From Eledone cirrhosa (taxonomy: Eukaryota; Mollusca; Cephalopoda; Octopoda; Eledonidae): a stretch of 64,000 nucleotides of DNA. The position numbers and the translations under genes were made by a program. Location: the NCBI GenBank assembly GCA_964016885.1, contig OZ024742.1, forward strand, positions 14,961,007 through 15,025,006, written 5' to 3'. How positions within the stretch are numbered: the stretch's first letter is position 1; each line of letters begins with the position of its first letter. A model generated the notes under the pieces. It was not told the origin of the DNA, did no database searches, and saw only the letters and a list, made by a program, of their open reading frames with translations. Below are positions 13,082 to 50,931 of the stretch, in pieces.

Positions 13082-13118
<37 letters not shown>

Positions 13119-15157: not shown

Positions 15158-18059
15158 CAGTGACTTTACTAGAGCTGGTCAGTGACTTTACTAGAGCTGG
15201 TCAGTGACTTTACTAGAGCTGGTAAGTGACTTTACTAGAGCTGGTCAGTGACTTTACTAGAGCTGGTCAGTGACTTTACTAGAGCTGGTCAGTGACTTTA
15301 CTAGAGCTGGTCAGTGACTTTACTAGAGCTGGTCAGTGACTTTACTAGAGCTGGTCAGTGACTTTATTAGAGCTGGTCAGTGACTTTACTAGAGGTGGTC
15401 AGAGACTTTACTAGAGGTCGTCTGACTTTACTAGAGGTCGTCAGTGACTTTACTAGAGCTGGTCAGAGACTTTACTACAGCTGGTCAGTGACTTTAGAGC
15501 TGGTCAGTGACTTTACTAGAGCTGGTCAGTGACTTTACTAGAGCTGGTCAGAGACTTTACTAGAGCTGGTCAGTGACTTTACTAGAGCTGGTCAGTGACT
15601 TTACTAGAGCTGGTCAGAGACTTTACTAGAGGTTGTCAGTGACTTTACTAGAGCTGGTCAGTGACTTTACTAGAGCTGGTCAGTGACTTTACTAGAGCTG
15701 GTCAGTGACTTTACTAGAGCTGGTCAGAGACTTTACTAGAGGTTATCAGTGACTTTACTAGAGCTGGTCAGTGACTTTACTAGAGCTGGTCTGACTTTAC
15801 TAGAGGTGGTCCGAGACTTTACTAGAGGTCGTCTGACTTTATTAGAGCTGGTCAGTGACTTTACTAGAACTGGTCAGAGACTTTACTAGAGGTTGTCAGT
15901 GACTTTACTAGAGCTGGTCAGTGACTTTACTAGAGCTGGTCAGTGACTTTACTAGAGGTGGTCAGTGACTTTACTAGAGCTGGTCAGTGACTTTACTAGA
16001 GCTGGTCAGTGACTTTACTAGAGCTGGTCAGAGACTTTACTAGAGCTGGTCTGAGTTTACTAGAGGTGGTCAGACTTTACTAGAGCTGGTCAGTGACTTT
16101 ACTAGAGGTCGTCAGAGACTTTACGAGAAGTGGTCAGACTTTACTAGAGCTGGTCAGTGACTTTACTAGAGCTGGTCAGTGACTTTACTAGAGGTGGTCA
16201 GAGACTTTACTAGAGCTGGTCAGTGACTTTACTAGAGGTGGTCAGAGACTTTACTAGAGCTGGTCAGTGACTTTACTAGAGCTGGTCAGTGACTTTACTA
16301 GAGCTGGTGAGTGAATTTACTAGAGCTGGTCAGTGACTTTACTAGAGCTGTTCACTGACTTTACTAGAGCTGGTCAGAGACTTTACTAGAGGTTGTCAGT
16401 GACTTTAGAGCTGGTCAGTGACTTTAGAGCTGGTCAGTGACTTTACTAGAGCTGGTCAGTGACTTTACTAGAGCTGGTCAGTGACTTTACTAGAGCTGGT
16501 CAGTGACTTTACTAGAGCTAGTCAGTGACTTTACTAGAGCTAGTCAGTGACTTTACTAGAGCTGGTCAGAGACTTTACTAGAGCTGGTCAGTGACTTTAC
16601 TAGAGCTGGTCAGTGACTTTACTACTGCTGGTCAGTGACTTTACTAGAGCTGGTCAGAGACTTTACTAGAGGTCAGTGACTTTGCTAGAGGTCAGTGACT
16701 TTACTAGAGCTGGTCAGAGACTTTACTAGAGGTTGTCAGTGACTTTACTAGGGGTTGTCAGTGACTTTACTAGAGCTGGTCAGTGACTTAACTAGAGGTG
16801 GTCAGAGACTTTACTAGAGGTCGTCTGACTTTACTAGAGGTCGTCAGTGACTTACTAGAGGTGGTCAGAGACTTTACTAGAGGTTGTCAGTGACTTTACT
16901 AGAGGTCGTCACTGACTTTACTAGAGGTCGTCAGAGACTTTACTAGAAGTGGTCAGACTTTACTAGAGCTGGTCAGTGACTTTACTAGAGCTGGTGAGTG
17001 ACTTTACTAGAGCTGGTCAGTGACTTTACTAGAGCTGTTCAGTGACTTTACTAGAGCTGGTCAGAGACTTTACTAGAGGTTGTCAGTGACTTTACTAGAG
17101 CTGGTCAGTGACTTTAGAGCTGGTCAGTGACTTTACTAGAGCTGGTCAGTGACTTTACTAGAGCTGGTCAGTGACTTTACTAGAGCTGGTCAGAGACTTT
17201 ACTAGAGGTCAGTGACTTTACTAGAGGTCAGTGACTTTACTAGAGCTGGTCAGACTTTACTAGAGGTTGTCAGTGACTTTACTAGAGGTTGTCAGTGACT
17301 CTACTAGAGCTGGTCAGTGACTTTACTAGAGCTGGTCAGTGACTTTACTAGAGGTGGTCAAAGACTTTACTAGAGGTCGTCAGAGACTTTACTAGAAGTG
17401 GTCAGACTTTACTAGAGCTGGTCAGTGACTTTACTAGAGCTGGTCAGTGACTTTATTAGAGCTGGTCTGACTTTACTAGAGCTGGTCACTGACTTTACTA
17501 GAGCTGGTCAGTGACTTTACTAGAGGTGGTCAGAGACTTTACTAGAGGTCGTCAGTGACTTTACTAGAGGTGGTCAGAGACTTTACTAGAGGTGGTCAGA
17601 GACTTGACTAGAGCTGGTCAGTGACTTCACTAGAGGTGGTCAGTGACTACTAGAGCTGGTTAGTGACTTTACTAGAGCTGGTCAGTGACTTGATTAGAGC
17701 TGGTCTGACTTTACTAGAGCTGGTCAGTGACTTTACTAGAGGTGGTCAGAGACTTTACTAGAGGTCATCAGTGACTTTACTAGAGGTCGTCAGAGACTTT
17801 ACTAGAAGTGGTCAGACTTTACTAGAGCTGGTCAGTGACTTTACTAGAGATGGTCAGTGACTTTACTAGAGCTGGTCTGACTTTACTAGAGCTGGTCACT
17901 GACTTTACTAGAGCTGGTCAGTGACTTTACTAGAGGTGGTCAGAGACTTTACTAGAGGTCGTCAGTGACTTTACTAGAGGTGGTCAGAGACTTTACTAGA
18001 GGTGGTCAGAGACTTGACTAGAGCTGGTCAGTGACTTTACTAGAGGTGGTCAGTGACTT

Positions 18060-21000
18060 TACTAGAGCTGGTCAGTGACTTTATTAGAGCTGGTCAGTGA
18101 CTTTACTAGAGCTGGTCAGTGACTTTACTAGAGCTGGTCAATGACTTTACGAGAGGTGGTCAGAGACTTTACTAGAGGTCATCAGTGACTTTACTAGAGG
18201 TCGTCAGACTTTACTAGAAGTGGTCAGACTTTACTAGAGCTGTCAGTGACTTTACTAGAGATGGTCAGTGATTTTACTAGAGCTGGTCTGACTTTACTAG
18301 AGCTGGTCACTGACTTTACTAGAGCTGGTCAGTGACTTTACTAGAGGTGGTCAGAGACTTTACTAGAGGTCGTCTGACTTTACTAGATGTCAGTGACTTT
18401 ACTAGAGGTGGTCAGAGACTTTACTAGAGGTCGTCAGTGACTTTACTAGAGCTGGTCAGTGACTTTACTAGAGGTGGTCAGAGACTTTACTAGAGGTCGT
18501 CAGAGACTTTACTAGAAGTGGTCAGACTTTACTAGAGCTGGTCAGTGACTTTACTAGAGCTGGTCAGTGACTTTACTAGAGCTGGTCAGTGACTTTACTA
18601 GAGCTGGTCAGTGACTTTACTAGAGGTGGTCAGAGACTTTACTAGAGCTGGTCAGTGACTTTACTAGAGCTGGTCAGTGACTTTACTAGAGCTGGTGAGT
18701 GACTTTACTAGAGCTGGTCAGTGACTTTACTAGAGCTGTTCAGTGACTTTACTAGAGCTGTTCAGTGACTTTAGAGCTGGTCAGTGACTTTAATAGAGCT
18801 GGTCAGTGACTTTACTAGAGATGGTCAGTGACTTTACTAGAGGTGGTCAGAGACTTTACTACAGCTGGTCAGTGACTTTACTAGAGCTGGTCAGTGACTT
18901 TACTAGTGCTGGTCAATGACTTTACTAGAGCTGGTCAGAGACTTTACTAGAGGTCAGTGACTTTACTAGAGGTCAGTAACTTTACTAGAGCTGGTCAGAT
19001 TTTACTAGAGGTTGTCAGTGACTACTAGAGCTGGTCAGTGACTTTACTAGAGCTGGTCAGTGACTTTACTAGAGGTGGTCAAAGACTTTACTAGAGGTCG
19101 TCAGAGACTTTACTAGAAGTGGTCAGACTTTACTAGAGCTGGTCAGTGACTTTACTATAGCTGGTCAGTGACTTTACTAGAGCTGGTCAGTGACTTTATT
19201 AGAGCTGGTCTGACTTTACTAGAGCTGGTCACTGACTTTACTAGAGCTGGTCAGTGACTTTATTAGAGGTGGTCAGAGACTTTACTAGAGGTCGTCTGAC
19301 TTTACTAGATGTCAGTGACTTTATTAGAGGTTGTCAGTGACTTTAATAGAGCTGGTCAGTGACTTTACTAGAGGTGGTCTGAGACTTTACTAGAGGTCGT
19401 CAGTGACTTTACTAGAGGTGGTCAGAGACTTTACTAGAGGTGGTCAGAGACTTGACTAGAGCTGGTCAGTGACTTTACTAGAGGTGGTCAGTGACTTTAC
19501 TAGAGCTGGTCAGTGACTTGATTAGAGCTGGTCTGACTTTACTAGAGCTGGTCAGTGACTTTACTAGAGGTGGTCAGAGACTTTACTAGAGGTCATCAGT
19601 GACTTTACTAGAGGTCGTCAGAGACTTTACTAGAAGTGGTCAGACTTTACTAGAGCTGGTCAGTGACTTTACTAGAGATGGTCAGTGACTTTACTAGAGC
19701 TGGTCTGACTTTACTAGAGCTGGTCACTGACTTTACTAGAGCTGGTCAGTGACTTTACTAGAGGTGGTGAGAGACTTTACTAGAGGTCGTCAGTGACTTT
19801 ACTAGAGGTGGTCAGAGACTTTACTAGAGGTGGTCAGAGACTTTACTAGAGCTGGTGAGTGACTTTAATAGAGCTGGTCAGTGACTTTACTAGAGCTGTT
19901 CACTGACTTTACTAGAGCTGGTCAGAGACTTTACTAGAGGTTGTCAGTGACTTTAGAGCTGGTCAGTGATTTAGAGCTGGTCAGTGACTTTACTAGAGCT
20001 GGTCAGTGACTTTACTAGAGCTGGTCAGTGACTTTACTAGAGCTGGTCAGAGACTTTACTAGAGCTGGTCAGTGACTTTACTAGAGCTGGTCAGTGACTT
20101 TACTACTGCTGGTCAGTGACTTTACTAGAGCTGGTCAGAGACTTTACTAGAGGTCAGTGACTTTGCTAGAGGTCAGTGACTTTACTAAAGCTGGTCAGAG
20201 ACTTTACTAGAGGTTGTCAGTGACTTTACTAGAGGTTGTCAGTGACTTTACTAGAGCTGGTCAGTGACTTAACTAGAGGTCGTCTGACTTTACTAGAGGT
20301 CGTCAGTGACTTTACTAGAGCTGGTCAGTGACTTACTAGAGGTAGTCAGAGACTTTACTAGAGGTTGTCAGTGACTTTACTAGAGCTGGTCAGTGATTTT
20401 ACTAGAGGTGGTCAGAGACTTTACTAGAGGTCGTCACTGACTTTACTAGAGGTCGTCAGAGACTTTACTAGAAGTGGTCAGACTTTACTAGAGCTGGTCA
20501 GTGACTTTACTAGAGCTGGTGAGTGACTTTACTAGGGGTGGTCAGAGACTTTACTAGTGCTGGTCAGTGACTTTACTAGAGCTAGTCAGTGACTTTACTA
20601 GAGGTGGTCAGTCTCTACAAGAGGTCGTCGGTGACTTTACTGGAGCTGGTCAGTGACTTTACTAGAGGTGGTCAGTGACTTTACTAGAGGTGGTCAGACA
20701 TTACTAGAGCTGGTCAGTGACTTTACTAGAGGTGGTCAGAGACTTTACTAGAGGTCAGTGACTTTACTAGAGTTGGTCAGAGACTTTACTAGAGGTTGTG
20801 AGTGACTTTACTAGAGCTCGTCAGTGACTTTAGCGCTGGTCAGTGACTTTACTAGAGCTGGTCAGTGACTTTACTAGAGGTGGTCAGACTTTACTAGGCT
20901 GGTCAGTGACTTTACTAGAGCTAGTCAGTGACTTTACTAGAGGTTGTCAGACTTTACTAGAGGTTGTCAGTGACTTTACTAGAGCTGGTCAGTGACTTTA

Positions 21001-24000
21001 CTAGAGCTGGTCAGTGAAATACTAGAGGTGGTCAGTGACTTTACTAGAGCTGGTCAGTGACTTTACTAGAGCTGGTCAGTGACTTTACTAGAGCTGGTCA
21101 GTGACTTTACTAGAGCTTGTCTGACTTTACTAGAGCTGGTCACTGACTTTACTAGAGGTGGTCAGAGACTTTACTAGGCTGGTCAGTGACTTTACTAGAA
21201 CTAGTCAGTGACTTTACTAGAGGTGGTCAGACTTTACTAGAGGTTGTCAGTGACTTTACTAGAGCTCGTCAGTGACTTTACTAGAGGTGGTCAGTGACTT
21301 TACTAGAGGTGGTCAGAGACATTACTAGAGCTGGTCAGTGTCTTGATTAGAGGTTGTCAGACTACTAGAGGTGATCAGTGACTCTACTAGAGCTGGTCAG
21401 AGACATTACTAGAGGTGGTCAGTGACTTTACTAGAGGTCGTCTGACTTTACTAGATGTAAGTGACTTCACTAGAGGTGGTCAGAGAGTTTACTACAGCTG
21501 GTCAGTGACTTTACTACAGCTGGTCAGTGACTTTACTAGAGCTGGTCAGTGACTTTACTAGAGGTGGTCAGTGACTTTACTAGAGGTGGTCAGAGACATT
21601 ACTAGAGCTGGTCAGTGACTTTACTAGAGGTGGTCAGAGACTTTACTAGAGGTCAGTGACTTTACTAGAGTTGGTCAGAGACATTACTAGAGCTGGTCAG
21701 TGACTTGACTAGAGGTTGTCAGAGACTTTACTAGAGCTGGTCAGTGATTTTACTAGAGGTGGTCAGAGACTTTACTAGAGGTGATCAGTGACTTTACTAG
21801 AGCTGGTCAGTGACTTTACTACAGGTGGTCAGTGACTTTACTAGAGGTGGTCAGACTTTATTAGAGCTGGTCAGTGACTTTACTAGAGGTGGTCAGACTT
21901 CACTAGAGATGGACAGTGACTTACTAGAGCTGGTTAGTGACTTGACTAGAGGTGGTCAGACTTTACTAGAGGAGGTCAGTGACTTTACTAGAGCTGGTCT
22001 GACTTTACTAGAGCTGGTCTGACTTTTCTAGAGATAGTCAGAGACTTTACTAGAGCTGGTCAGTGACTTTACTAGTGCTGGTCAGTGACTTTACTAGAGC
22101 TGGTCAGTGACTTTACTAGAGCTGGTCAGTGACTTTACTAGAGGTGGTCAGAGACTTTACTAGAGGTCGTCAGTGACTTTATTAGAGCTGGTCAGTGACT
22201 TTATTAGAGCTGGTCAGTGACTTTACTAGAGCTGGTCAGTGACTTTACTAGAGCTGGTCAGTGACTTTACTAGAGGTGGTCAAAGACTTTACTAGAGGTC
22301 GTCAGTGACTTTACTAGAGCTGGTCAGAGACCTTACTAGAGGTTGTCAGAGACTTTACTAGAGGTTGTCAGAGACTACTAGAGCTGGTCAGTGACTTTAC
22401 TAGAGTTGGTCAGACTTTACTAGAGCTCTTCAGTGACTTTACTAGAGGTGGTCAGAGACTTTACTAGGGCTGGTCAGTGACTTTACTAGAGCTAGTCAGT
22501 GACTTTACTAGTGCTGGTCAGTGACTTTACTAGAGCTGGTCAGTGACTTTACTAGAGCTGGTCAGTGACTTTACTTGAGCTGGTTAGTGACTTTACTCGA
22601 GCTGGTCAGTGACTTTATTAGAGCTGGTCAGTGACTTTACTAGAGCTGGTCAATGACTTTACGAGAGGTGGTCAGAGACTTTACTAGAGGTCATCAGTGA
22701 CTTTACTAGAGGTCGTCAGACTTTACTAGAAGTGGTCAGACTTTACTAGAGCTGTCAGTGACTTTACTAGAGATGGTCAGTGATTTTACTAGAGCTGGTC
22801 TGACTTTACTAGAGCTGGTGACTGACTTTACTAGAGCTGGTCAGTGACTTTACTAGAGGTGGTCAGAGACTTTACTAGAGGTCGTCTGACTTTACTAGAT
22901 GTCAGTGACTTTACTAGAGGTGGTCAGAGACTTTACTAGAGGTCGTCAGTGACTTTACTAGAGCTGGTCAGTGACTTTACTAGAGGTCGTCAGAGACTTT
23001 ACTAGAAGTGGTCAGACTTTACTAGAGCTGGTCAGTGACTTTACTAGAGCTGGTCAGTGACTTTACTAGAGCTGGTCAGTGACTTTACTAGAGCTGGTCA
23101 GTGACTTTACTAGAGGTGGTCAGAGACTTTACTAGAGCTGGTCAGTGACTTTACTAGAGCTGGTCAGTGACTTTACTAGAGCTGGTGAGTGACTTTACTA
23201 GAGCTGGTCAGTGACTTTACTAGAGCTGTTCAGTGACTTTACTAGAGCTGTTCAGTGACTTTAGAGCTGGTCAGTGACTTTAATAGAGCTGGTCAGTGAC
23301 TTTACTAGAGATGGTCAGTGACTTTACTAGAGGTGGTCAGAGACTTTACTACAGCTGGTCAGTGACTTTACTAGAGCTGGTCAGTGACTTTACTAGTGCT
23401 GGTCAATGACTTTACTAGAGCTGGTCAGAGACTTTACTAGAGGTCAGTGACTTTACTAGAGGTCAGTAACTTTACTAGAGCTGGTCAGATTTTACTAGAG
23501 GTTGTCAGTGACTACTAGAGCTGGTCAGTGACTTTACTAGAGCTGGTCAGTGACTTTACTAGAGGTGGTCAAAGACTTTACTAGAGGTCGTCAGAGACTT
23601 TACTAGAAGTGGTCAGACTTTACTAGAGCTGGTCAGTGACTTTACTATAGCTGGTCAGTGACTTTACTAGAGCTGGTCAGTGACTTTATTAGAGCTGGTC
23701 TGACTTTACTAGAGCTGGTCACTGACTTTACTAGAGCTGGTCAGTGACTTTATTAGAGGTGGTCAGAGACTTTACTAGAGGTCGTCTGACTTTACTAGAT
23801 GTCTGACTTTATTAGAGGTTGTCAGTGACTTTAATAGAGCTGGTCAGTGACTTTACTAGAGGTGGTCTGAGACTTTACTAGAGCTGGTCAGTGACTTTAC
23901 TAGAGGTGGTCAGAGACTTTACTAGAGGTGGTCAGAGACTTGACTAGAGCTGGTCAGTGACTTTACTAGAGGTGGTCAGTGACTTTACTAGAGCTGGTCA

Positions 24001-27000
24001 GTGACTTGATTAGAGCTGGTCTGACTTTACTAGAGCTGGTCAGTGACTTTACTAGAGGTGGTCAGAGACTTTACTAGAGGTCATCAGTGACTTTACTAGA
24101 GGTCGTCAGAGACTTTACTAGAAGTGGTCAGACTTTACTAGAGCTGGTCAGTGACTTTACTAGAGATGGTCAGTGACTTTACTAGAGCTGGTCTGACTTT
24201 ACTAGAGCTGGTCACTGACTTTACTAGAGCTGGTCAGTGACTTTACTAGAGGTGGTCAGAGACTTTACTAGAGGTCGTCAGTGACTTTACTAGAGGTGGT
24301 CAGAGACTTTACTAGAGGTGGTCAGAGACTTTACTAGAGCTGGTGAGTGACTTTAATAGAGCTGGTCAGTGACTTTACTAGAGCTGTTCACTGACTTTAC
24401 TAGAGCTGGTCAGAGACTTTACTAGAGGTTGTCAGTGACTTTAGAGCTGGTCAGTGATTTAGAGCTGGTCAGTGACTTTACTAGAGCTGGTCAGTGACTT
24501 TACTAGAGCTGGTCAGTGACTTTACTAGAGCTGGTCAGAGACTTTACTAGAGCTGGTCAGTGACTTTACTAGAGCTGGTCAGTGACTTTACTACTGCTGG
24601 TCAGTGACTTTACTAGAGCTGGTCAGAGACTTTACTAGAGGTCAGTGACTTTGCTAGAGGTCAGTGACTTTACTAAAGCTGGTCAGAGACTTTACTAGAG
24701 GTTGTCAGTGACTTTACTAGAGGTTGTCAGTGACTTTACTAGAGCTGGTCAGTGACTTAACTAGAGGTCGTCTGACTTTACTAGAGGTCGTCAGTGACTT
24801 TACTAGAGCTGGTCAGTGACTTACTAGAGGTGGTCAGAGACTTTACTAGAGGTTGTCAGTGACTTTACTAGAGCTGGTCAGTGATTTTACTAGAGGTGGT
24901 CAGAGACTTTACTAGAGGTCGTCACTGACTTTACTAGAGGTCGTCAGAGACTTTACTAGAAGTGGTCAGACTTTACTAGAGCTGGTCAGTGACTTTACTA
25001 GAGCTGGTGAGTGACTTTACTAGGGGTGGTCAGAGACTTTACTAGTGCTGGTCAGTGACTTTACTAGAGCTAGTCAGTGACTTTACTAGAGGTGGTCAGT
25101 CTCTACAAGAGGTCGTCGGTGACTTTACTGGAGCTGGTCAGTGACTTTACTAGAGGTGGTCAGTGACTTTACTAGAGGTGGTCAGACATTACTAGAGCTG
25201 GTCAGTGACTTTACTAGAGGTGGTCAGAGACTTTACTAGAGGTCAGTGACTTTACTAGAGTTGGTCAGAGACTTTACTAGAGGTTGTGAGTGACTTTACT
25301 AGAGCTCGTCAGTGACTTTAGCGCTGGTCAGTGACTTTACTAGAGCTGGTCAGTGACTTTACTAGAGGTGGTCAGACTTTACTAGAGCTGGTCAGTGACT
25401 TTACTAGAGCTGGTCAGTGACTTTACTAGAGCTGGTCAGTGACTTTACTAGAGGTTATCAGTGACTTTACTAGAGCTGGTCAGTGACTTTACTAGATCTG
25501 GTCAGTGACTTTACTAGAGCTTGTCTGACTTTACTAGAGCTGGTCACTGACTTTACTAGAGGTGGTCAGAGACTTTACTAGGCTGGTCAGTGACTTTACT
25601 AGAGCTAGTCAGTGACTTTACTAGAGGTTGTCAGACTTTACTAGAGGTTGTCAGTGACTTTACTAGAGCTGGTCAGTGACTTTACTAGAACTGGTCAGAG
25701 ACTTTACTAGAGGTTGTCAGTGACTTTACTAGAGCTGGTCAGTGACTTTACTAGAGCTGGTCAGTGAAATACTAGAGGTGGTCAGTGACTTTACTAGAGC
25801 TGGTCAGTGACTTTACTAGAGCTGGTCAGTGACTTTACTAGAGCTGGTCAGTGACTTTACTAGAGCTTGTCTGACTTTACTAGAGCTGGTCACTGACTTT
25901 ACTAGAGGTGGTCAGAGACTTTACTAGGCTGGTCAGTGACTTTACTAGAACTAGTCAGTGACTTTACTAGAGGTGGTCAGACTTTACTAGAGGTTGTCAG
26001 TGACTTTACTAGAGCTCGTCAGTGACTTTACTAGAGGTGGTCAGTGACTTTACTAGAGGTGGTCAGAGACATTACTAGAGCTGGTCAGTGTCTTGATTAG
26101 AGGTTGTCAGACTACTAGAGGTGATCAGTGACTCTACTAGAGCTGGTCAGAGACATTACTAGAGGTGGTCAGTGACTTTACTAGAGGTCGTCTGACTTTA
26201 CTAGATGTAAGTGACTTCACTAGAGGTGGTCAGAGAGTTTACTACAGCTGGTCAGTGACTTTACTACAGCTGGTCAGTGACTTTACTAGAGCTGGTCAGT
26301 GACTTTACTAGAGGTGGTCAGTGACTTTACTAGAGGTGGTCAGAGACATTACTAGAGCTGGTCAGTGACTTTACTAGAGGTGGTCAGAGACTTTACTAGA
26401 GGTCAGTGACTTTACTAGAGTTGGTCAGAGACATTACTAGAGCTGGTCAGTGACTTGACTAGAGGTTGTCAGAGACTTTACTAGAGCTGGTCAGTGATTT
26501 TACTAGAGGTGGTCAGAGACTTTACTAGAGGTGATCAGTGACTTTACTAGAGCTGGTCAGTGACTTTACTACAGGTGGTCAGTGACTTTACTAGAGGTGG
26601 TCAGACTTTATTAGAGCTGGTCAGTGACTTTACTAGAGGTGGTCAGACTTCACTAGAGATGGACAGTGACTTACTAGAGCTGGTTAGTGACTTGACTAGA
26701 GGTGGTCAGACTTTACTAGAGGAGGTCAGTGACTTTACTAGAGCTGGTCTGACTTTACTAGAGCTGGTCTGACTTTTCTAGAGATAGTCAGAGACTTTAC
26801 TAGAGCTGGTCAGTGACTTTACTAGTGCTGGTCAGTGACTTTACTAGAGCTGGTCAGTGACTTTACTAGAGCTGGTCAGTGACTTTACTAGAGGTGGTCA
26901 GAGACTTTACTAGAGGTCGTCAGTGACTTTATTAGAGCTGGTCAGTGACTTTATTAGAGCTGGTCAGTGACTTTACTAGAGCTGGTCAGTGACTTTACTA

Positions 27001-30000
27001 GAGCTGGTCAGTGACTTTACTAGAGGTGGTCAAAGACTTTACTAGAGGTCGTCAGTGACTTTACTAGAGCTGGTCAGAGACCTTACTAGAGGTTGTCAGA
27101 GACTTTACTAGAGGTTGTCAGAGACTACTAGAGCTGGTCAGTGACTTTACTAGAGCTGGTCAGACTTTACTAGAGCTCTTCAGTGACTTTACTAGAGGTG
27201 GTCAGAGACTTTACTAGGGCTGGTCAGTGACTTTACTAGAGCTAGTCAGTGACTTTACTAGTGCTGGTCAGTGACTTTACTAGAGCTGGTCAGTGACTTT
27301 ACTAGAGCTGGTCAGTGACTTTACTTGAGCTGGTTAGTGACTTTACTCGAGCTGGTCAGTGACTTTATTAGAGCTGGTCAGTGACTTTACTAGAGCTGGT
27401 CAATGACTTTACGAGAGGTGGTCAGAGACTTTACTAGAGGTCATCAGTGACTTTACTAGAGGTCGTCAGACTTTACTAGAAGTGGTCAGACTTTACTAGA
27501 GCTGTCAGTGACTTTACTAGAGATGGTCAGTGATTTTACTAGAGCTGGTCTGACTTTACTAGAGCTGGTGACTGACTTTACTAGAGCTGGTCAGTGACTT
27601 TACTAGAGGTGGTCAGAGACTTTACTAGAGGTCGTCTGACTTTACTAGATGTCAGTGACTTTACTAGAGGTGGTCAGAGACTTTACTAGAGGTCGTCAGT
27701 GACTTTACTAGAGCTGGTCAGTGACTTTACTAGAGGTCGTCAGAGACTTTACTAGAAGTGGTCAGACTTTACTAGATCTGGTCAGTGACTTTACTAGAGC
27801 TGGTCAGTGACTTTACTAGAGCTGGTCAGTGACTTTACTAGAGCTGGTCAGTGACTTTACTAGAGGTGGTCAGAGACTTTACTAGAGCTGGTCAGTGACT
27901 TTACTAGAGCTGGTCAGTGACTTTACTAGAGCTGGTGAGTGACTTTACTAGAGCTGGTCAGTGACTTTACTAGAGCTGTTCAGTGACTTTACTAGAGCTG
28001 TTCAGTGACTTTAGAGCTGGTCAGTGACTTTAATAGAGCTGGTCAGTGACTTTACTAGAGATGGTCAGTGACTTTACTAGAGGTGGTCAGAGACTTTACT
28101 ACAGCTGGTCAGTGACTTTACTAGAGCTGGTCAGTGACTTTACTAGTGCTGGTCAATGACTTTACTAGAGCTGGTCAGAGACTTTACTAGAGGTCAGTGA
28201 CTTTACTAGAGGTCAGTAACTTTACTAGAGCTGGTCAGATTTTACTAGAGGTTGTCAGTGACTACTAGAGCTGGTCAGTGACTTTACTAGAGCTGGTCAG
28301 TGACTTTACTAGAGGTGGTCAAAGACTTTACTAGAGGTCGTCAGAGACTTTACTAGAAGTGGTCAGACTTTACTAGAGCTGGTCAGTGACTTTACTATAG
28401 CTGGTCAGTGACTTTACTAGAGCTGGTCAGTGACTTTATTAGAGCTGGTCTGACTTTACTAGAGCTGGTCACTGACTTTACTAGAGCTGGTCAGTGACTT
28501 TATTAGAGGTGGTCAGAGACTTTACTAGAGGTCGTCTGACTTTACTAGATGTCTGACTTTATTAGAGGTTGTCAGTGACTTTAATAGAGCTGGTCAGTGA
28601 CTTTACTAGAGGTGGTCTGAGACTTTACTAGAGCTGGTCAGTGACTTTACTAGAGGTGGTCAGAGACTTTACTAGAGGTGGTCAGAGACTTGACTAGAGC
28701 TGGTCAGTGACTTTACTAGAGGTGGTCAGTGACTTTACTAGAGCTGGTCAGTGACTTGATTAGAGCTGGTCTGACTTTACTAGAGCTGGTCAGTGACTTT
28801 ACTAGAGGTGGTCAGAGACTTTACTAGAGGTCATCAGTGACTTTACTAGAGGTCGTCAGAGACTTTACTAGAAGTGGTCAGACTTTACTAGAGCTGGTCA
28901 GTGACTTTACTAGAGATGGTCAGTGACTTTACTAGAGCTGGTCTGACTTTACTAGAGCTGGTCACTGACTTTACTAGAGCTGGTCAGTGACTTTACTAGA
29001 GGTGGTCAGAGACTTTACTAGAGGTCGTCAGTGACTTTACTAGAGGTGGTCAGAGACTTTACTAGAGGTGGTCAGAGACTTTACTAGAGCTGGTGAGTGA
29101 CTTTAATAGAGCTGGTCAGTGACTTTACTAGAGCTGTTCACTGACTTTACTAGAGCTGGTCAGAGACTTTACTAGAGGTTGTCAGTGACTTTAGAGCTGG
29201 TCAGTGACTTTAGAGCTGGTCAGTGACTTTACTAGAGCTGGTCAGTGACTTTACTAGAGCTGGTCAGTGACTTTACTAGAGCTTGTCAGTGACTTAACTA
29301 GAGCTAGTCAGTGACTTTACTAGAGCTGGTCAGAGACTTTACTAGAGCTGGTCAGTGACTTTACTAGAGCTGGTCAGTGACTTTACTACTGCTGGTCAGT
29401 GACTTTACTAGAGCTGGTCAGAGACTTTACTAGAGGTCAGTGACTTTGCTAGAGGTCAGTGACTTTACTAAAGCTGGTCAGAGACTTTACTAGAGGTTGT
29501 CAGTGACTTTACTAGAGGTTGTCAGTGACTTTACTAGAGCTGGTCAGTGACTTAACTAGAGGTCGTCTGACTTTACTAGAGGTCGTCAGTGACTTTACTA
29601 GAGCTGGTCAGTGACTTACTAGAGGTGGTCAGAGACTTTACTAGAGGTTGTCAGTGACTTTACTAGAGCTGGTCAGTGATTTTACTAGAGGTGGTCAGAG
29701 ACTTTACTAGAGGTCGTCACTGACTTTACTAGAGGTCGTCAGAGACTTTACTAGAAGTGGTCAGACTTTACTAGAGCTGGTCAGTGACTTTACTAGAGCT
29801 GGTGAGTGACTTTACTAGGGGTGGTCAGAGACTTTACTAGTGCTGGTCAGTGACTTTACTAGAGCTAGTCAGTGACTTTACTAGAGGTGGTCAGTCTCTA
29901 CAAGAGGTCGTCAGTGACTTTACTGGAGCTGGTCAGTGACTTTACTAGAGGTGGTCAGTGACTTTACTAGAGGTGGTCAGACATTACTAGAGCTGGTCAG

Positions 30001-32000
30001 TGACTTTACTAGAGGTGGTCAGACTTTACTAGAGGTCAGTGACTTTACTAGAGTTGGTCAGAGACTTTACTAGAGGTTGTGAGTGACTTTACTAGAGCTC
30101 GTCAGTGACTTTAGCGCTGGTCAGTGACTTTACTAGAGCTGGTCAGTGACTTTACTAGAGGTGGTCAGACTTTACTAGAGCTGGTCAGTGACTTTACTAG
30201 AGCTGGTCAGTGACTTTACTAGAGCTGGTCAGTGACTTTACTAGAGGTTATCATTGACTTTACTAGAGCTGGTCAGTTACTTTACTAGAGCTGGTCAGTG
30301 ACTTTACTAGAGCTTGTCTGACTTTACTAGAGCTGGTCACTGACTTTACTAGAGGTGGTCAGAGACTTTACTAGGCTGGTCAGTGACTTTACTAGAGCTA
30401 GTCAGTGACTTTACTAGAGGTTGTCAGACTTTACTAGAGGTTGTCAGTGACTTTACTAGAGCTGGTCAGTGACTTTACTAGAACTGGTCAGAGACTTTAC
30501 TAGAGGTTGTCAGTGACTTTACTAGAGCTGGTCAGTGACTTTACTAGAGCTGGTCAGTGAAATACTAGAGGTGGTCAGTGACTTTACTAGAGCTGGTCAG
30601 TGACTTTACTAGAGCTGGTCAGTGACTTTACTAGAGCTGGTCAGTGACTTTACTAGAGCTTGTCTGACTTTACTAGAGCTGGTCACTGACTTTACTAGAG
30701 GTGGTCAGAGACTTTACTAGGCTGGTCAGTGACTTTACTAGAACTAGTCAGTGACTTTACTAGAGGTTGTCAGTGACTTTACTAGAGCTCGTCAGTGACT
30801 TTACTAGAGGTGGTCAGTGACTTTACTAGAGGTGGTCAGACATTACTAGAGCTGGTCAGTGTCTTGATTAGAGGTTGTCAGACTACTAGAGGTGATCAGT
30901 GACTTTACTAGAGCTGGTCAGAGACATTACTAGAGGTGGTTAGTGACTTTACTAGAGGTCGTCTATCTTTACTAGATGTAAGTGACTTCACTAGAGGTGG
31001 TCAGAGTTTACTACAGCTGGTCAGTGACTTTACTACAGCTGGTCAGTGACTTTACTAGAGCTGGTCAGTGACTTTACTAGAGGTGGTCAGTGACTTTACT
31101 AGAGGTGGTCAGAGACATTACTAGAGCTGGTCAGTGACTTTACTAGAGGTGGTCAGAGACTTTACTAGAGGTCAGTGACTTTACTAGAGTTGGTCAGAGA
31201 CATTACTAGAGCTGGTCAGTGACTTTACTAGAGGTTGTCAGAGACTTTACTAGAGGTGATCAGTGACTTTACTAGAGCTGGTCAGTGACTTTACTACAGG
31301 TGGTCAGTGACTTTACTAGAGGTGGTCAGACTTTATTAGAGCTGGTCAGTGACTTTACTAGAGGTGGTCAGACTTCACTAGAGATGGACAGTGACTTACT
31401 AGAGCTGGTTAGTGACTTGACTAGAGGTGGTCAGACTTTACTAGAGGAGGTCAGTGACTTTACTAGAGCTGGTCAGTGACTTTACTAGAGCTGGTCAGTG
31501 ACTTTACTAGAGCTGGTCAGTGACTTTACTAGAGCTGGTCAGTGACTTTACTAGAGGTGGTCAGAGACTTTACTAGAGGTCGTCAGTGACTTTATTAGAG
31601 CTGGTCAGTGACTTTATTAGAGCTGGTCAGTGACTTTACTAGAGCTGGTGAGTGACTTTACTAGAGCTGGTCAGTGACTTTACTAGAGGTGGTCAGAGAC
31701 TTTACTAGAGGTCGTCAGTGACTTTACTAGAGCTGGTCAGAGACCTTACTAGAGGTTGTCAGAGACTTTACTAGAGGTTGTCAGAGACTTTACTAGAGCT
31801 GGTCAGTGACTTTACTAGAGCTGGTCAGACTTTACTAGAGCTCTTCAGTGACTTTACTAGAGGTGGTCAGAGACTTTACTAGGGCTGGTCAGTGACTTTG
31901 CTAGAGCTAGTCAGTGACTTTACTAGTGCTGGTCAGTGACTTTACTAGAGCTGGTCAGTGACTTTACTAGAGCTGGTCAGAGACTTTACTAGAGCTCGTC
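18060..32000 (+). repeat. Higher-order repeat block, period about 4.75 kb
   Basis: Rare variants recur at fixed spacing: GTCAATGACTTTACGAGAGG at about 18138, 22649 and 27399; the open patch at 21810, 26560 and 31285. Spacings are about 4.51, 4.75 and 4.73 kb. The first copy lacks about 260 bp present in the second near 25400-25700. Edges are approximate because they were read by eye. Confidence 0.85.
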
Positions 32001-35000: not shown

Positions 35001-38000
35001 GGTCAGTGACTTTACTAGAGCTGGTCAGTGACTTTACTAGAGCTGGTCAGAGACTTTACTAGTGCTCGTCAGTGACTTTACTAGAGGTGGTCAGAGACTT
35101 TACTAGAGGTCAGTGACTTTACTAGAGTTGGTCAGAGACTTTACTAGAGGTTGTGAGTGACTTTACTAGAGCTCGTCAGTGACTTTAGCGCTTGTCAGTG
35201 ACTTTACTAGAGCTGGTCAGTGACTTTACTAGAGGTGGTCAGACTTTACTAGAGCTGGTCAGTGACTTTACTAGAGCTGGTCAGTGACTTTACTAGAGCT
35301 GGTCAGTGACTTTACTAGAGGTTATCATTGACTTTACTAGAGCTGGTCAGTTACTTTACTAGAGCTGGTCAGTGACTTTACTAGAGCTTGTCTGACTTTA
35401 CTAGAGCTGGTCACTGACTTTACTAGAGGTGGTCAGAGACTTTACTAGGCTGGTCAGTGACTTTACTAGAGCTAGTCAGTGACTTTACTAGAGGTTGTCA
35501 GACTTTACTAGAGGTTGTCAGTGACTTTACTAGAGCTGGTCAGTGACTTTACTAGAACTGGTCAGAGACTTTACTAGAGGTTGTCAGTGACTTTACTAGA
35601 GCTGGTCAGTGACTTTACTAGAGCTGGTCAGTGAAATACTAGAGGTGGTCAGTGACTTTACTAGAGCTGGTCAGTGACTTTACTAGAGCTGGTCAGTGAC
35701 TTTACTAGAGCTGGTCAGTGACTTTACTAGAGCTTGTCTGACTTTACTAGAGCTGGTCACTGACTTTACTAGAGGTGGTCAGAGACTTTACTAGGCTGGT
35801 CAGTGACTTTACTAGAACTAGTCAGTGACTTTACTAGAGGTGGTCAGACTTTACTAGAGGTTGTCAGTGACTTTACTAGAGCTCGTCAGTGACTTTACTA
35901 GAGGTGGTCAGTGACTTTACTAGAGGTGGTCAGAGACATTACTAGAGCTGGTCAGTGTCTTGATTAGAGGTTGTCAGACTACTAGAGGTGATCAGTGACT
36001 TTACTAGAGCTGGTCAGAGACATTACTAGAGGTGGTTAGTGACTTTACTAGAGGTCGTCTATCTTTACTAGATGTAAGTGACTTCACTAGAGGTGGTCAG
36101 AGAGTTTACTACAGCTGGTCAGTGACTTTACTACAGCTGGTCAGTGACTTTACTAGAGCTGGTCAGTGACTTTACTAGAGGTGGTCAGTGACTTTACTAG
36201 AGGTGGTCAGAGACATTACTAGAGCTGGTCAGTGACTTTACTAGAGGTGGTCAGAGACTTTACTAGAGGTCAGTGACTTTACTAGAGTTGGTCAGAGACA
36301 TTACTAGAGCTGGTCAGTGACTTTACTAGAGGTTGTCAGAGACTTTACTAGAGGTGATCAGTGACTTTACTAGAGCTGGTCAGTGACTTTACTACAGGTG
36401 ATCAGTGACTTTACTAGAGGTGGTCAGACTTTATTAGAGCTGGTCAGTGACTTTACTAGAGGTGGTCAGACTTCACTAGAGATGGACAGTGACTTACTAG
36501 AGCTGGTTAGTGACTTGACTAGAGGTGGTCAGACTTTACTAGAGGAGGTCAGTGACTTTACTAGAGCTGGTCAGTGACTTTACTAGAGCTGGTCAGTGAC
36601 TTTACTAGAGCTGGTCAGTGACTTTACTAGAGCTGGTCAGTGACTTTACTAGAGGTGGTCAGAGACTTTACTAGAGGTCGTCAGTGACTTTATTAGAGCT
36701 GGTCAGTGACTTTATTAGAGCTGGTCAGTGACTTTACTAGAGCTGGTGAGTGACTTTACTAGAGCTGGTCAGTGACTTTACTAGAGGTGGTCAGAGACTT
36801 TACTAGAGGTCGTCAGTGACTTTACTAGAGCTGGTCAGAGACCTTACTAGAGGTTGTCAGAGACTTTACTAGAGGTTGTCAGAGACTTTACTAGAGCTGG
36901 TCAGTGACTTTACTAGAGCTGGTCAGACTTTACTAGAGCTCTTCAGTGACTTTACTAGAGGTGGTCAGAGACTTTACTAGGGCTGGTCAGTGACTTTGCT
37001 AGAGCTAGTCAGTGACTTTACTAGTGCTGGTCAGTGACTTTACTAGAGCTGGTCAGTGACTTTACTAGAGCTGGTCAGAGACTTTACTAGAGCTCGTCAG
37101 TGACTTTACTAGAGGTGGTCAGAGACTTTACTAGGGCTGGTCAGTGACTTTACTAGAGCTAGTCAGTGACTTTACTAGAGGTGGTCAGACTTTACTAGAG
37201 GTTGCCAATGACTTTACTAGAGGTCGTCAGTGACTTTACTAGAGCTGGTCAGTGACTTTACTAGGTGGTCAGTGACTTTACTAGAGGTGGTCAGAGACAT
37301 TACTAGAGCTGGTCAGTGACTTGACTAGAGGTTGTCAAAGACTTTACTAGAGCTGGTCAGTGACTTTACTAGAGCTGGTCAGTGACTTTACTAGAGGTGG
37401 TCAGACTTTACTAGAGGTTGTCAGTGACTTTACTAGTGCTGGTCAGTGACTTTACTAGAGGTCGTTAGTGACTTTATTAGAGCTGGTCAGTGACTTCACT
37501 AGAGCTGGTCAGTGATTTTACTGGAGCTGGTCAGAGAGTTTACTAGAGCTGGTCAGTGACTTTACTAGAGCTGGTCAGTGACTTTACTAGAGCTGGTCAG
37601 AGACTTTACTAGTGCTCGTCAGTGACTTTACTAGAGGTGGTCAGAGACTTTACTAGAGCTGGTCAGAGACTTTACTAGAGCTGGTCAGAGACTTTACTAG
37701 GGCTCGTCAGTGACTTTACTAGAGGTGGTCAGAGACTTTACTAGTGCTGGTCAGTGACTTTACTAGAGCTAGTCAGTGACTTTACTAGAGGTGGTCAGTC
37801 TGTACAAGAGGTCGTCAGTGACTTTACTGGAGCTGGTCAGTGACTTTACTAGAGGTGGTCAGTGACTTTACTAGAGGTGGTCAGACATTACTAGAGTTGG
37901 TCAGTGACTTTACTAGAGGTGGTCAGAGACTTTACTAGAGGTCAGTGACTTTACTAGAGTTGGTCAGAGACTTTACTAGAGGTGGTCAGAGACTTTACCA

Positions 38001-40440
38001 GAGCTGGTCAGTGACTTTACTAGAGCTGGTCAGTGACTTTACTAGAGCTGGTCAGAGACTTTACTAGAGGTTATCAGTGACTTTACTAGAGCTGGTCAGT
38101 GACTTTACTAGAGCTGGTCAGTGACTTTACTAGAGGTGGTCAGAGACTTTACTAGAGCTCGTCAGTGACTTTACTAGAGGTGGTCAGTGACTTTACTAGA
38201 GGTGGTCAGAGACATTACTAGAGCTGGTCAGTGTCTTGATTAGAGGTTGTCAGACTACTAGAGGTGATCAGTGACTTTACTAGAGCTGGTCAGAGACATT
38301 ACTAGAGGTGGTTAGTGACTTTACTAGAGGTCGTCTATCTTTACTAGATGTAAGTGACTTCACTAGAGGTGGTCAGAGAGTTTACTACAGCTGGTCAGTG
38401 ACTTTACTACAGCTGGTCAGTGACTTTACTAGAGCTGGTCAGTGACTTTACTAGAGGTGGTCAGTGACTTTACTAGAGGTGGTCAGAGACATTACTAGAG
38501 CTGGTCAGTGACTTTACTAGAGGTGGTCAGAGACTTTACTAGAGGTCAGTGACTTTACTAGAGTTGGTCAGAGACATTACTAGAGCTGGTCAGTGACTTT
38601 ACTAGAGGTTGTCAGAGACTTTACTAGAGGTGATCAGTGACTTTACTAGAGCTGGTCAGTGACTTTACTACAGGTGATCAGTGACTTTACTAGAGGTGGT
38701 CAGACTTTATTAGAGCTGGTCAGTGACTTTACTAGAGGTGGTCAGACTTCACTAGAGATGGACAGTGACTTACTAGAGCTGGTTAGTGACTTGACTAGAG
38801 GTGGTCAGACTTTACTAGAGGAGGTCAGTGACTTTACTAGAGCTGGTCAGTGACTTTACTAGAGCTGGTCAGTGACTTTACTAGAGCTGGTCAGTGACTT
38901 TACTAGAGCTGGTCAGTGACTTTACTAGAGGTGGTCAGAGACTTTACTAGAGGTCGTCAGTGACTTTATTAGAGCTGGTCAGTGACTTTATTAGAGCTGG
39001 TCAGTGACTTTACTAGAGCTGGTGAGTGACTTTACTAGAGCTGGTCAGTGACTTTACTAGAGGTGGTCAGAGACTTTACTAGAGGTCGTCAGTGACTTTA
39101 CTAGAGCTGGTCAGAGACCTTACTAGAGGTTGTCAGAGACTTTACTAGAGGTTGTCAGAGACTTTACTAGAGCTGGTCAGTGACTTTACTAGAGCTGGTC
39201 AGACTTTACTAGAGCTCTTCAGTGACTTTACTAGAGGTGGTCAGAGACTTTACTAGGGCTGGTCAGTGACTTTGCTAGAGCTAGTCAGTGACTTTACTAG
39301 TGCTGGTCAGTGACTTTACTAGAGCTGGTCAGTGACTTTACTAGAGCTGGTCAGAGACTTTACTAGAGCTCGTCAGTGACTTTACTAGAGGTGGTCAGAG
39401 ACTTTACTAGGGCTGGTCAGTGACTTTACTAGAGCTAGTCAGTGACTTTACTAGAGGTGGTCAGACTTTACTAGAGGTTGCCAATGACTTTACTAGAGGT
39501 CGTCAGTGACTTTACTAGAGCTGGTCAGTGACTTTACTAGGTGGTCAGTGACTTTACTAGAGGTGGTCAGAGACATTACTAGAGCTGGTCAGTGACTTGA
39601 CTAGAGGTTGTCAAAGACTTTACTAGAGCTGGTCAGTGACTTTACTAGAGCTGGTCAGTGACTTTACTAGAGGTGGTCAGACTTTACTAGAGGTTGTCAG
39701 TGACTTTACTAGTGCTGGTCAGTGACTTTACTAGAGGTCGTTAGTGACTTTATTAGAGCTGGTCAGTGACTTCACTAGAGCTGGTCAGTGATTTTACTGG
39801 AGCTGGTCAGAGACTTTACTAGAGCTGGTCAGTGACTTTACTAGAGCTGGTCAGTGACTTTACTAGAGCTGGTCAGAGACTTTACTAGTGCTCGTCAGTG
39901 ACTTTACTAGAGGTGGTCAGAGACTTTACTAGAGCTGGTCAGAGACTTTACTAGAGCTGGTCAGAGACTTTACTAGGGCTCGTCAGTGACTTTACTAGAG
40001 GTGGTCAGAGACTTTACTAGTGCTGGTCAGTGACTTTACTAGAGCTAGTCAGTGACTTTACTAGAGGTGGTCAGTCTCTACAAGAGGTCGTCAGTGACTT
40101 TACTGGAGCTGGTCAGTGACTTTACTAGAGGTGGTCAGTGACTTTACTAGAGGTGGTCAGACATTACTAGAGTTGGTCAGTGACTTTACTAGAGGTGGTC
40201 AGAGACTTTACTAGAGGTCAGTGACTTTACTAGAGTTGGTCAGAGACTTTACTAGAGGTGGTCAGAGACTTTACCAGAGCTGGTCAGTGACTTTACTAGA
40301 GCTGGTCAGTGACTTTACTAGAGCTGGTCAGAGACTTTACTAGAGGTTATCAGTGACTTTACTAGAGCTGGTCAGTGACTTTACTAGAGCTGGTCAGTGA
40401 CTTTACTAGAGGTGGTCAGAGACTTTACTAGAGGTGGACT
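30000..40440 (+). repeat. Higher-order repeat block, period about 2.55 kb, then 2.28 kb
   Basis: The open patch recurs at 31285, 33833, 36383 and 38659 (spacings 2548, 2550, 2276), and GGTTGTGAGTGAC recurs at 30075, 32601 and 35149. The 2.55-kb unit is a rearranged part of the 4.75-kb unit, since both share TTAGCGCT and GTCTATCTTTACTAG-type markers. The last copy differs by an internal deletion. Confidence 0.85.
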
Positions 40441-41759
40441 GACTTACTAGAGCTGGTCAGTGACTTTACTAGAGGTGGTCAGACTTAATTAGAGATGGTC
40501 AGTAACTTTACTAGAGCTGGCCAGTGACTTGACTAGAGGTGGTCAGACTTTACTAGAGGAGGTCAGTGACTTTACTAGAGCTGGTCTGACTTTACTAGAG
40601 CTGGTCTGACTTTTCTAGAGATGGTCAGAGACTTTACTAGAGTGGTCAGTGACTTTACTAGAGTGGTCAGTGACTTTACTAGAGCTGGTCAGTGACTTTA
40701 CTAGAGCTGGTCTGACTTTACTAGAGCTGGTCAGTGACTTTACTTGAGGTGGTCAGACTTTACTAGTGGTCGTCTGACTTTACTAGATGTAAGTGACTTT
40801 ACTAGAGGTGGTCAGAGACTTTACTAGAGGTTGTCAGTGACTTTACTAGAGCTGGTCAGTGACTTTACTAGAGCTGGTCAGTGACTTTACTAGAGCTGGT
40901 GAGTGACTTTACTAGAGCTGTTCAGTGACTTTACTAGAGCTGGTAAGTGACTTTAGAACTGGTCAGTCACTTTACTAGAGCTGGTCAGTGACTTTACTAG
41001 AGGTGGTCAGAGACTTTACTAGAGCTGGTCAGTGACTTTACTAGAGCTGGTCAGTGACTTTACTAGTGCTGGTCAGTGACTTTACTAGAGCTGGTCAGTG
41101 ACTTTTCTAGAGGTTGTCAGAGACTTTACTAGAGCTGGTCAGTGACTTTACTAGAGCTGGTCTGACTCTACTAGAGCTGGTCACTGTCTTTACTAGAGCT
41201 GGTCACTGTCTTTACTAGAGGTGGTCAGAGACTTTACTAGGCTGGTCAGTGACTTTACTAGAGATAGTCAGTGACTTTACTAGAGCTGGTCAGACTTTAC
41301 TAGAGGTTGTCAGTGACTTTACTAGAGGTCGTCAGTGACTTTACTAGAGCTGGTCTGACTTTACTAGAGGTGGTCAGAGACTTTACTAGAGGTGGTCAGT
41401 GACTGCTAGAGGTGGTCAAACATTACTATAGCTGGTCAGTGACTTGACTAGAGGTTGTCAGAGACTTTACTAGAGCTGGTCAGTGACTTTACTAGCGCTG
41501 ATCAGAGACTTTACTAGAGCTGGTCAGTGACTTTACTAGAGGTGGTCAGAGACTTTACTAGAGCTAGTCAGTGACTTTACTAGAGGTGGTCAGACTCTAC
41601 TAGAGGTCGTCAGTGACTTTACTAGAGCTGGTCTGACTTTACTAGAGGTGGTCAGTGACTTTACTAGAGGTGGTCAGAGACATTACTAGAGCTGGTCAGT
41701 GACTTGACTAGAGGTTTTCAGAGACTTTACTAGAGGTGGTCAGATACTTTACTAGAGGT

Positions 41760-48000: not shown

Positions 48001-48229
48001 ATGGTCAGAGACTTTACTAGAGTGGTCAGTAACTTTACTAGAGTGGTCAGTGACTTTACTAGAGCTGGTCAGTGACTTTACTAGAGCTGGTCTGACTTTA
48101 CTAGAGCTGGTCAGTGACTTTACCTGAGGTGGTCAGACTTTGCTAGAGGTCGTCTGACTTTACTAGATGTAAGTGACTTTACTAGAGGTGGTCAGAGACT
48201 TTACTAGAGGTTGTCAGTGACTTTACTAG

Positions 48230-49160
48230 AGCTGGTCAGTGACTTTACTAGAGCTGGTCAGTGACTTTACTAGAGCTGGTCAGTGACTTTAGAGCTGGTC
48301 AGTCACTTTACTAGAGCTGGTCAGTGACTTTACTAGAGGTGGTCAGAGACTTTACTAGAGCTGGTCAGTGACTTTACTAGAGCTGGTCAGTGACTTTACT
48401 AGTGCTGGTCAGTGACTTTACTAGAGCTGGTCAGTGACTTTTCTAGAGGTTGTCAGAGACTTTACTAGAGCTGGTCAGTGACTTTACTAGAGCTGGTCTG
48501 ACTTTACTAGAGCTGGTCACTGTCTTTACTAGAGGTGATCAGAGACTTTACTAGGCTGGTCTGACTTTACTAGGCTGGTCAGTGACTTTACTAGAGATAG
48601 TCAGTGACTTTACTAGAGGTGGTCAGACTTTACTAGAGGTTGTCAGTGACTTTACTAGAGGTCGTCAGTGACTTTACTAGAGCTGGTCTGACTTTACTAG
48701 AGGTGGTCAGTGACTTTACTAGAGCTGGTCAGTGACTTTAGAGCTGGTCAGTCACTTTACTAGAGCTGGTCAGTGACTTTACTAGAGGTGGTCAGAGACT
48801 TTACTAGAGCTGGTCAGTGACTTTACTAGAGCTGGTCAGTGACTTTACTAGTGCTGGTCAGTGACTTTACTAGAGCTGGTCAGTGACTTTTCTAGAGGTT
48901 GTCAGAGACTTTACTAGAGCTGGTCAGTGACTTTACTAGAGCTGGTCTGACTTTACTAGAGCTGGTCACTGTCTTTACTAGAGGTGATCAGAGACTTTAC
49001 TAGGCTGGTCTGTGACTTTACTAGGCTGGTCAGTGACTTTACTAGAGATAGTCAGTGACTTTACTAGAGGTGGTCAGACTTTACTAGAGGTTGTCAGTGA
49101 CTTTACTAGAGGTCGTCAGTGACTTTACTAGAGCTGGTCTGACTTTACTAGAGGTGGTCA
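48230..49160 (+). repeat. Higher-order repeat block, period about 0.45 kb
   Basis: AGAGCTGGTCAGTCACTTTA recurs at 48291 and 48740. Two copies; the right one differs by a few bases (GGTCTGTGAC). Confidence 0.75.
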
Positions 49161-50931
49161 GTGAATTTACTAGAGGTGGTCAGAGACATTACTAGAGCTG
49201 GTCAGTGACTTGACTAGAGGTTGTCAGACTTTACTAGAGCTGGTCAGTGACTTTACTAGAGGTGGTCAGAGACTTTACTAGAGGTGGTCAGTTACTTTAC
49301 TAGAGGTGATCAGTGACTTTACTAGAGCTGGTCAGACATTACTAGAGGTGGTCAGTGACTTTACTAGAGGTCGTCTGACTTTACTAGATGTCAGTGACTT
49401 TACTAGAGGTGGTCAGAGACTTTACTAGAGGATGTCAGTGACTTTACTAGAGCTGGTCAGTGACTTTACTAGAGCTGGTCAGTGACTTTACTAGAGCTGG
49501 TCAGTGACTTTACTAGAGCTGGTCAGTGACTTCACTAGAGCTGGTCAGTGACTTTACTAGAGCTGGTCAGAGACTTTACTAGAGGTTGTCAGTGACTTTA
49601 CTAGTGCTGGTCAGTGACTTTAGAGCTGGTCAGTGACTTTACTAGAGCTGGTTAGTGAATTTACTAGAGGTGGTCAGACTTTACTTGAGCTGGTCAGTGA
49701 CTTTACTAGAGCTGGTCAGTGACTACTAGAGCTGGTCAGACTTTACTAGAGGTTGTCAGTGACTTTACTAGGGCTGGTGAGAGACTTTACTAGAGATGGT
49801 CAGTGACTTTACTAGAGCTGGTCAGTGACTTTACTAGAGCTGCTCAGTGACTTTACTAGAGCTGGTCAGTGACTTTACTAGAGGTGGTCAGTGACTTTAC
49901 TAGAGGTGGTCAGAGACTTTACTAGAGCTGGTCAGTGACTTTACTAGAGCTGGTCAGTGACTTTACTAGAGCTGGTCAGTGACTTTACTAGAGGTTGTCA
50001 GAGACTTTACTAGAGGTCGTCAGTGACTTTATTAGAGCTGGTCAGTGACTTTACTAGAGCTGGTCAGTGACTTTACTAGTGCTGGTCAGTGACTTTACTA
50101 GAGGTGGTCAGAGACTTTACTAGAGGTGGTCAGTGACTTTACTAGAGCTGGTCAGTGACTTTACTAGTGCTGCTCAGTGACTTTACTAGAGCTGGTCAGT
50201 GACTTTACTAGAGCTGGTCAGTGACTTTACTAGTGCTGGTCAGTGACTTTACTAGAGGTGGTCAGAGACTTTACTAGAGGTGGTCAGAGACTTTACTAGA
50301 GCTGGTCAGTGACTTTACTAGAGCTGGTCAGTGACTTTACTAGAGGTGGTCAGAGACTTCACTAGAGGTCGTCAGTGACTTTATTAGAGCTGGTCAGTGA
50401 CTTTACTAGAGCTGGTCAGTGACTTTACTAGTGCTGGTCAGTGACTTTACTAGAGGTGGTCAGAGACTTTACTAGAGCTGGTCAGTGACTTTACTAGAGG
50501 TGGTCAGAGACTACTAGAGGTGGACAGTGACTTTACTAGAGCTGGTCAGTGACTTTACTAGAGGTGGTCAGTGACTTTACTAGAGCTGGTCAGTGACTTT
50601 ACTAGAGCTGCTCAGTGACTTTACTAGAGCTGGTCAGTGACTTTACTAGAGGTGCTCAGTGACTTTACTAGAGGTGGTCAGAGACTTTACTAGAGCTGGT
50701 CAGTGACTTTACTAGAGGTGGTCAGAGACTACTAGAGGTGGACAGTGACTTTACTAGAGCTGGTCAGTGACCTTACTAGAGGTGGTCAGAGACTTTACTA
50801 GAGATGGTCAGTGACTTTACTAGGGCTGGTCAGTGACTTTACTAGGGCTGGTCAGTGACTTTACTAGAGGTGGTCAGAGACTTTGCTAGAGGTTGTCAGT
50901 GACTTTACTATAGATGGTTAGTGACTTCACT

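Follow-up and report, generated by a model that had tools for sequence, protein, structure and literature searches.

A private 22-bp minisatellite that fills most of a MED25 intron in Eledone cirrhosa and has probably grown in place

How does a single intron of MED25, a gene of the transcription machinery, come to hold some 36 kb of one tandem repeat in the octopod Eledone cirrhosa, and how could the gene still be read? The window analysed here is a 64,000-bp stretch of contig C3. In it, TRF delimited a 22-bp tandem array at exactly 15158-50931 (period 22, 1,659.6 copies). Our own wrap-around alignment, the scoring of which penalises insertions, parsed these 35,774 bp into 1,660 units of 13-22 bp each, 225 of them distinct, with 2,159 mismatches, 737 deleted bases and 0 inserted bases relative to the consensus. 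Identity to the consensus was 93-96% in each 2-kb stretch and 85% in the lowest-identity 66-bp stretch, and the unit-by-unit parse of the whole array revealed no foreign piece. The sequence-only reading that preceded this analysis had described one 22-bp array without insertion occupying about 95% of one intron; both statements were borne out, the measured share being 94.9% of 37,708 bp. With head-to-tail units within the range of about 10-100 bp and internal variants, the array is a minisatellite and a candidate VNTR.

Identification of the gene relied on its ACID and VWA domains (Table 1). Exons B, C, D and E joined into one 344-aa frame without a stop, each with AG before and GT after it. 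The Pfam Med25 profile (PF11232) matched the joined exons C and D at 2.1e-21 and exon E at 2.6e-17, and in a genome search each of the three exons matched it singly. Exons C, D and E, together with the end of exon B, make up a 147-aa ACID domain, which matched seven PDB sequences of MED25 (best 9.7e-46); this alignment has two gaps, one of 2 residues and one of a single residue that adjoins the C-D junction. Exons C and D had been read as adjacent parts of ACID, and their in-phase junction and their Pfam and PDB matches confirm it. Two pieces of the VWA domain (profile positions 51-90 and 125-165 of 213 in PF11265) precede ACID in the expected order on the same strand. The array thus lies, as had been proposed, inside a single MED25 intron, between two exons of one gene, which makes this a candidate giant satellite-bearing intron. 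Neither exon A nor exon B on its own matched Pfam; an exon was probably missed between 10451 and 12675, and it is likely small, since A and B, as read, are not directly compatible in phase. Taking 5131 as an approximate start, the known MED25 span is about 50 kb, of which the array makes up 72%.

Table 1. Features of the MED25 locus (window positions; contig coordinates where stated).
Feature	Position	Strand	Basis
VWA-domain exon piece of MED25	5136-5255 (contig C3 14966142-14966261)	+	PF11265, 29.7 bits, over cut-off, profile 51-90
VWA-domain exon piece of MED25	7122-7244 (contig C3 14968128-14968250)	+	PF11265, 38.3 bits, over cut-off, profile 125-165
Probable MED25 Pro/Gln-rich exon A	10066 or 10072-10451	+	Open frame, pyrimidine-rich AG acceptor, GTAAGT donor
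MED25 Gln-rich exon B, ending KKIWSG at ACID start	12675-13283	+	Frame open with C-D-E, AG acceptor, GTAAGT donor
MED25 ACID exon C	14645-14747	+	Pfam PF11232, PDB alignment, genome search, joined frame
Array-holding intron, GT...AG, 37,708 bp	14748-52455	+	C-D exon boundaries, joined frame
22-bp minisatellite, 1,660 units	15158-50931	.	TRF and own parse
Array part with 4.5-4.8 kb higher-order period	18501-30837 (end approximate)	.	Repeated unit blocks
Array part with 2.3-2.5 kb higher-order period	30576-40480	.	Repeated unit blocks
MED25 ACID exon D	52456-52621	+	Pfam PF11232, PDB alignment, genome search, joined frame
72-bp minisatellite, 16 copies 98% alike, in D-E intron	52755-53905	.	TRF
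MED25 ACID exon E, ending at GTAAGT donor	54700-54855	+	Pfam PF11232, PDB alignment, genome search, joined frame
55/59-bp array, past window end, at least 106 kb	57413-64000+	.	TRF, flank reading, C3 samples

A search of the whole assembly for a second ACID copy, whether another gene or a processed copy, found none: the three matches among ten scored candidates were exons C, D and E of the window. Given this result and the order of VWA and ACID on one strand, only a transcript running across the array can yield a complete ACID. One protein orthologue search returned nine proteins, two named vertebrate PTOV1 and seven without a name; another found none among 64 candidates.

At a tolerance of two mismatches, the 22-bp unit is private to this locus. 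It occurs at 1,101 places in the 2.98-Gb assembly, and the same 1,101 is the count in the window, with 0 on the minus strand; the control, the unit read backwards, gave 0 and 1. The 44-bp dimer was likewise found at 103 places in both window and assembly. As the whole counts are equal, the array has not dispersed and does not belong to a shared satellite, a statement that applies to units within two mismatches; 559 of the 1,660 units lie further off, and remote relatives may exist elsewhere in the assembly. A classical satellite has the same unit at many loci, and this unit, at the same tolerance, is found only in the MED25 array. Among the arrays met in this work, privacy was demonstrated for the 22-bp unit alone.

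To follow the growth of the array, each unit was coded as a letter and repeated strings were sought. This revealed 49 repeated blocks of 15 to 216 units that cover 83% of all units (45 of the 49 blocks are listed). When the order of units was shuffled, no repeated block appeared in any of five shuffles at the same threshold without trimming, under which the real order was 88% covered. One block of 3,656 bp recurs at a lag of 4,750 bp with 9 substitutions, another of 2,320 bp at a lag of 2,276 bp with 2. The 12 blocks of at least 1 kb differ by 0.09-1.14% in substitutions, half of them by at most 0.5%; over all 49 the difference ranges from 0 to 2.1%, with 13 at or below 0.5%, these counts omitting units of unequal length. 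The blocks are concentrated away from the array ends, where they include 3% of the first 60 units and 0% of the last 40, as expected if exchange takes place mostly within the array. From the lags, the central 22 kb would derive from about 7 kb.

A study on octopus quotes a rate of 0.0036 per million years (PMC13282606). If the rate is similar here and gene conversion is absent, this dates the six closest among the 12 pairs of at least 1 kb to 0.12-0.66 million years, and the widest pair, by the same sum, to about 1.6 million years. The recent growth suggested from the sequence alone is supported by near-identical, kilobase-scale duplications within the array. Not all of the growth is recent, as smaller blocks differ by up to 2.1%. 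Together, the private unit and the nested, partly recent duplications are well supported. Among the substitutions between array copies, 15 of 110 involve CpG, all 15 as CpG to TpG/CpA, a count made over overlapping blocks and restricted to a unit identity of at least 0.85, which hints that the copies are methylated at CpG. Decayed units were also sought in the unique flanks, where 6, 23, 95 and 89 of 100 shuffles scored as high in the left 300, left 100, right 300 and right 100 bp, respectively; this is at most a borderline hint of decayed units on the left.

The absence of transposons from the array had been contrasted with dozens in the flanks. That number was too high: the 18,194 bp of unmasked flank contain 16 interspersed-repeat clusters, merged by eye from 23 self-BLAST pairs and a reverse transcriptase frame. 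At this density 31 clusters would be expected in the 22-bp array, and 0 were seen. The reverse transcriptase frame lies at 135-1334, with a PHD-finger match over the cut-off directly after the RT domain. A near-absence of inserts is not special to the 22-bp array, as the 106 kb read of the neighbouring 55/59-bp array contain a single insert, about 0.4 kb long and SINE-like by eye. A SINE-like tail opens the stretch sampled at 15187501; SINE-like tails are in keeping with a cephalopod genome.

This neighbouring array begins 2.6 kb after exon E, with first units at 56385, and fills the entire right 100-kb flank; the left 100-kb flank is 21% tandem. At its start, at 56411-57417, a 0.4-kb piece occurs twice, each time with the same LINE-like minus-strand reading frame, and the two copies alternate with 55-bp units, so that duplication of the array seems to have taken a piece of transposon along with it. 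Many of the 55/59-bp units differ in the length of their AT run. On contig C3 the array was present at 15175, 15187.5, 15200 and 15212.5 kb and absent at 15225 kb, which corresponds to 194-207 kb if it is continuous. It may lie within the next MED25 intron, in which case the last MED25 exon would lie beyond it.

Further samples indicate how ordinary such arrays are in this genome, with the reservation that they were small and not strictly random. Among 2-kb samples at 20 preset positions on contigs C1-C5, three contained N and were dropped, and 6 of the 17 gap-free ones were at least 90% tandem (95% interval 14-62%). These six have different units, five of 20, 24, 30, 39 and 62 bp and one of 420 bp, which exceeds minisatellite length. 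At least 85% tandem content was found in 2 of 9 samples of 400 bp, one of them mainly of 6-bp period (10 taken, 1 with N). Downstream on C3, 8 of 18 samples of 1 kb were at least 99% tandem (20 taken, 2 with N); one of the eight is the 55/59-bp array. Another three, spaced 100 kb apart over 200 kb within 15525001-15726000, have one 29-bp unit in common, which suggests a 29-bp array of 200 kb or more. Long tandem arrays thus appear to be common in the Eledone cirrhosa genome. The MED25 array had been regarded as exceptional, a view that these counts do not support: the places sampled often carry long arrays of other units, and the neighbour is likewise nearly free of inserts.

How a transcript could pass through the array was examined from its signals. 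AATAAA/ATTAAA hexamers number 0 on the sense (gene) strand versus 65 on the antisense strand. At minima of 12, 11 and 10 pyrimidines in 15, the sense strand has 0, 16 and 87 acceptor-like sites and the antisense strand 5, 209 and 383. At the 12/15 cut the sense value of 0 compares with 0.66-2.94 per kb in five flank stretches, and at 11/15 it is again below all five per kb; at 10/15 the 2.43 per kb is within the 0.96-5.15 of the flanks. Of the four true acceptors, those of exons B and D, the latter the array intron's own, have only 10/15 pyrimidines, and the argument from few acceptors depends on the cut chosen. Donor-like sites are plentiful on the sense strand, with 31 GTRAGT and 991 GTNAGT (about one per 36 bp), against 48 GTNAGT on the antisense strand. 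The intron's own donor is CAT/GTATGT, and some of the array sites are at least its equal by the donor consensus; they could disturb splicing. The array is therefore poor in transcript-ending signals, though with weak splice-like sites. As a single array is concerned, the strand asymmetry may be due to chance.

Recursive splice sites (YAG/GTRAG) number 0 on both strands of the array, but also in all five flank stretches, which leaves the zero in the array with little weight. A special RNA structure of the sense strand was discarded, since a 661-nt array piece folds alike on both strands (sense z -1.8, 0 of 20 shuffles as low; antisense z -1.9, 1 of 20). Scans of the window with Rfam, at gathering threshold, and for tRNAs gave no match.

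We consider it probable that a locus-private minisatellite arose in the MED25 intron, grew in place and is a neutral, tolerated passenger. In a first step, single 22-bp units would have multiplied by slippage or unequal exchange. The sequence records the later growth: repeated tandem duplication of blocks of about 1-5 kb in the central part of the array, with unduplicated units remaining at both ends. Turnover by duplication and deletion would dilute transposon insertions. The array, probably neutral to selection, would owe its tolerance in part to the lack of poly(A) hexamers on the sense strand: without AATAAA/ATTAAA and with few good 3' splice sites, it would let polymerase read through, and the spliceosome would still be able to splice exons C and D together across 37.7 kb. 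The array is one example from a class of long arrays in this genome.

Three other explanations bear on the same observations. Part of what was measured could stem from the assembly, the array being real and mis-sized, or its near-identical 1-5 kb blocks being in part assembly duplications. Stretches of at least 1.5 kb are indeed exactly repeated, and the assembly has gaps elsewhere, so the assembled length may be wrong. On the other hand, the window and its 200 kb of flank contain no N, copies differ by scattered substitutions and by changes in unit length at several nested lags, and the array is bordered at either edge by non-array sequence of the same intron; we regard this explanation as rather unlikely. 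A function in MED25 expression is a more doubtful proposal, in which dense U1-like sites (CTG/GTCAGT) guard the transcript from early cleavage, or the intron imposes a delay. The strand bias of the GTNAGT sites agrees with a U1 platform, a motif that was noticed after the fact. Ranked over the 22 cyclic windows of nine positions, however, the U1 motif is the most variable (14.3% non-consensus versus 3.6% at the other 13 positions), which speaks against selection keeping it and makes the platform unlikely, and such a platform would have no poly(A) hexamer within the array to silence.

It is still less credible that MED25 is broken here, the array blocking splicing so that the gene is dead or its protein truncated. 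The combination of the CAT/GTATGT donor with an array rich in donor-like sites, the array of at least 106 kb after exon E, and the absence of the first and last exons from those found would fit such a loss. Against it, exons B-E form one stop-free frame, and no other ACID copy able to take over was found. Growth in place of a tolerated minisatellite accounts best for the locus.

More tentatively, and with some doubt on our part, the genome itself may have grown largely through many locus-private arrays, perhaps a third of the DNA, which expand in place, core-gene introns included, rather than through transposons or shared satellites; MED25 would carry two of them (36 kb and about 200 kb) and still be expressed. 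A genome filled with arrays would be of greater interest than the MED25 locus by itself. If the samples are representative, array growth would be a main driver of intron and genome size here, and the species a testbed for splicing over such introns. At the scale of one gene, a 36-kb private array shows how much tandem DNA a single intron can hold, and its nested duplications form a record of array growth.

Among the matches listed, mainly from the literature on cephalopod and mollusc genomes and on tandem repeats, the parts covered contain no prior description of the MED25 array or of such a class of arrays. The Octopus vulgaris genome consists of about 66% repeats (PMC13282606); that paper concerns transposons and, in the parts covered, gives no figure for minisatellite arrays. 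The closest known cases come from other animals, as far as the covered parts of the sources describe them. In Drosophila, the Y-linked genes kl-3 and kl-5 have introns that consist almost wholly of tandem repeats and are transcribed with the gene: megabases of simple satellite, transcribed as spermatocytes differentiate and with the aid of two RNA-binding proteins, Blanks and Heph (PMC6508621). The MED25 intron resembles them in being almost wholly tandem repeat, and differs in holding 36 kb of one private 22-mer, known from DNA alone, instead of a megabase satellite. The CeRep25B minisatellite of C. elegans is over-represented near alternatively spliced regions (PMC4039745) and lies near many genes, whereas the MED25 unit is found at one locus. 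The human ABCA7 intronic VNTR, with a 25-bp unit expanded to about 10 kb, has a length linked to expression and to exon 19 skipping (PMC5954066, PMC6857246). Like the MED25 array it is built from a short unit within an intron; it is smaller, and its length polymorphism and splicing effect have been measured, whereas MED25 is represented by one assembly. Overall, the array is real and correctly placed, and is a large-sized example of the intronic minisatellites already known.
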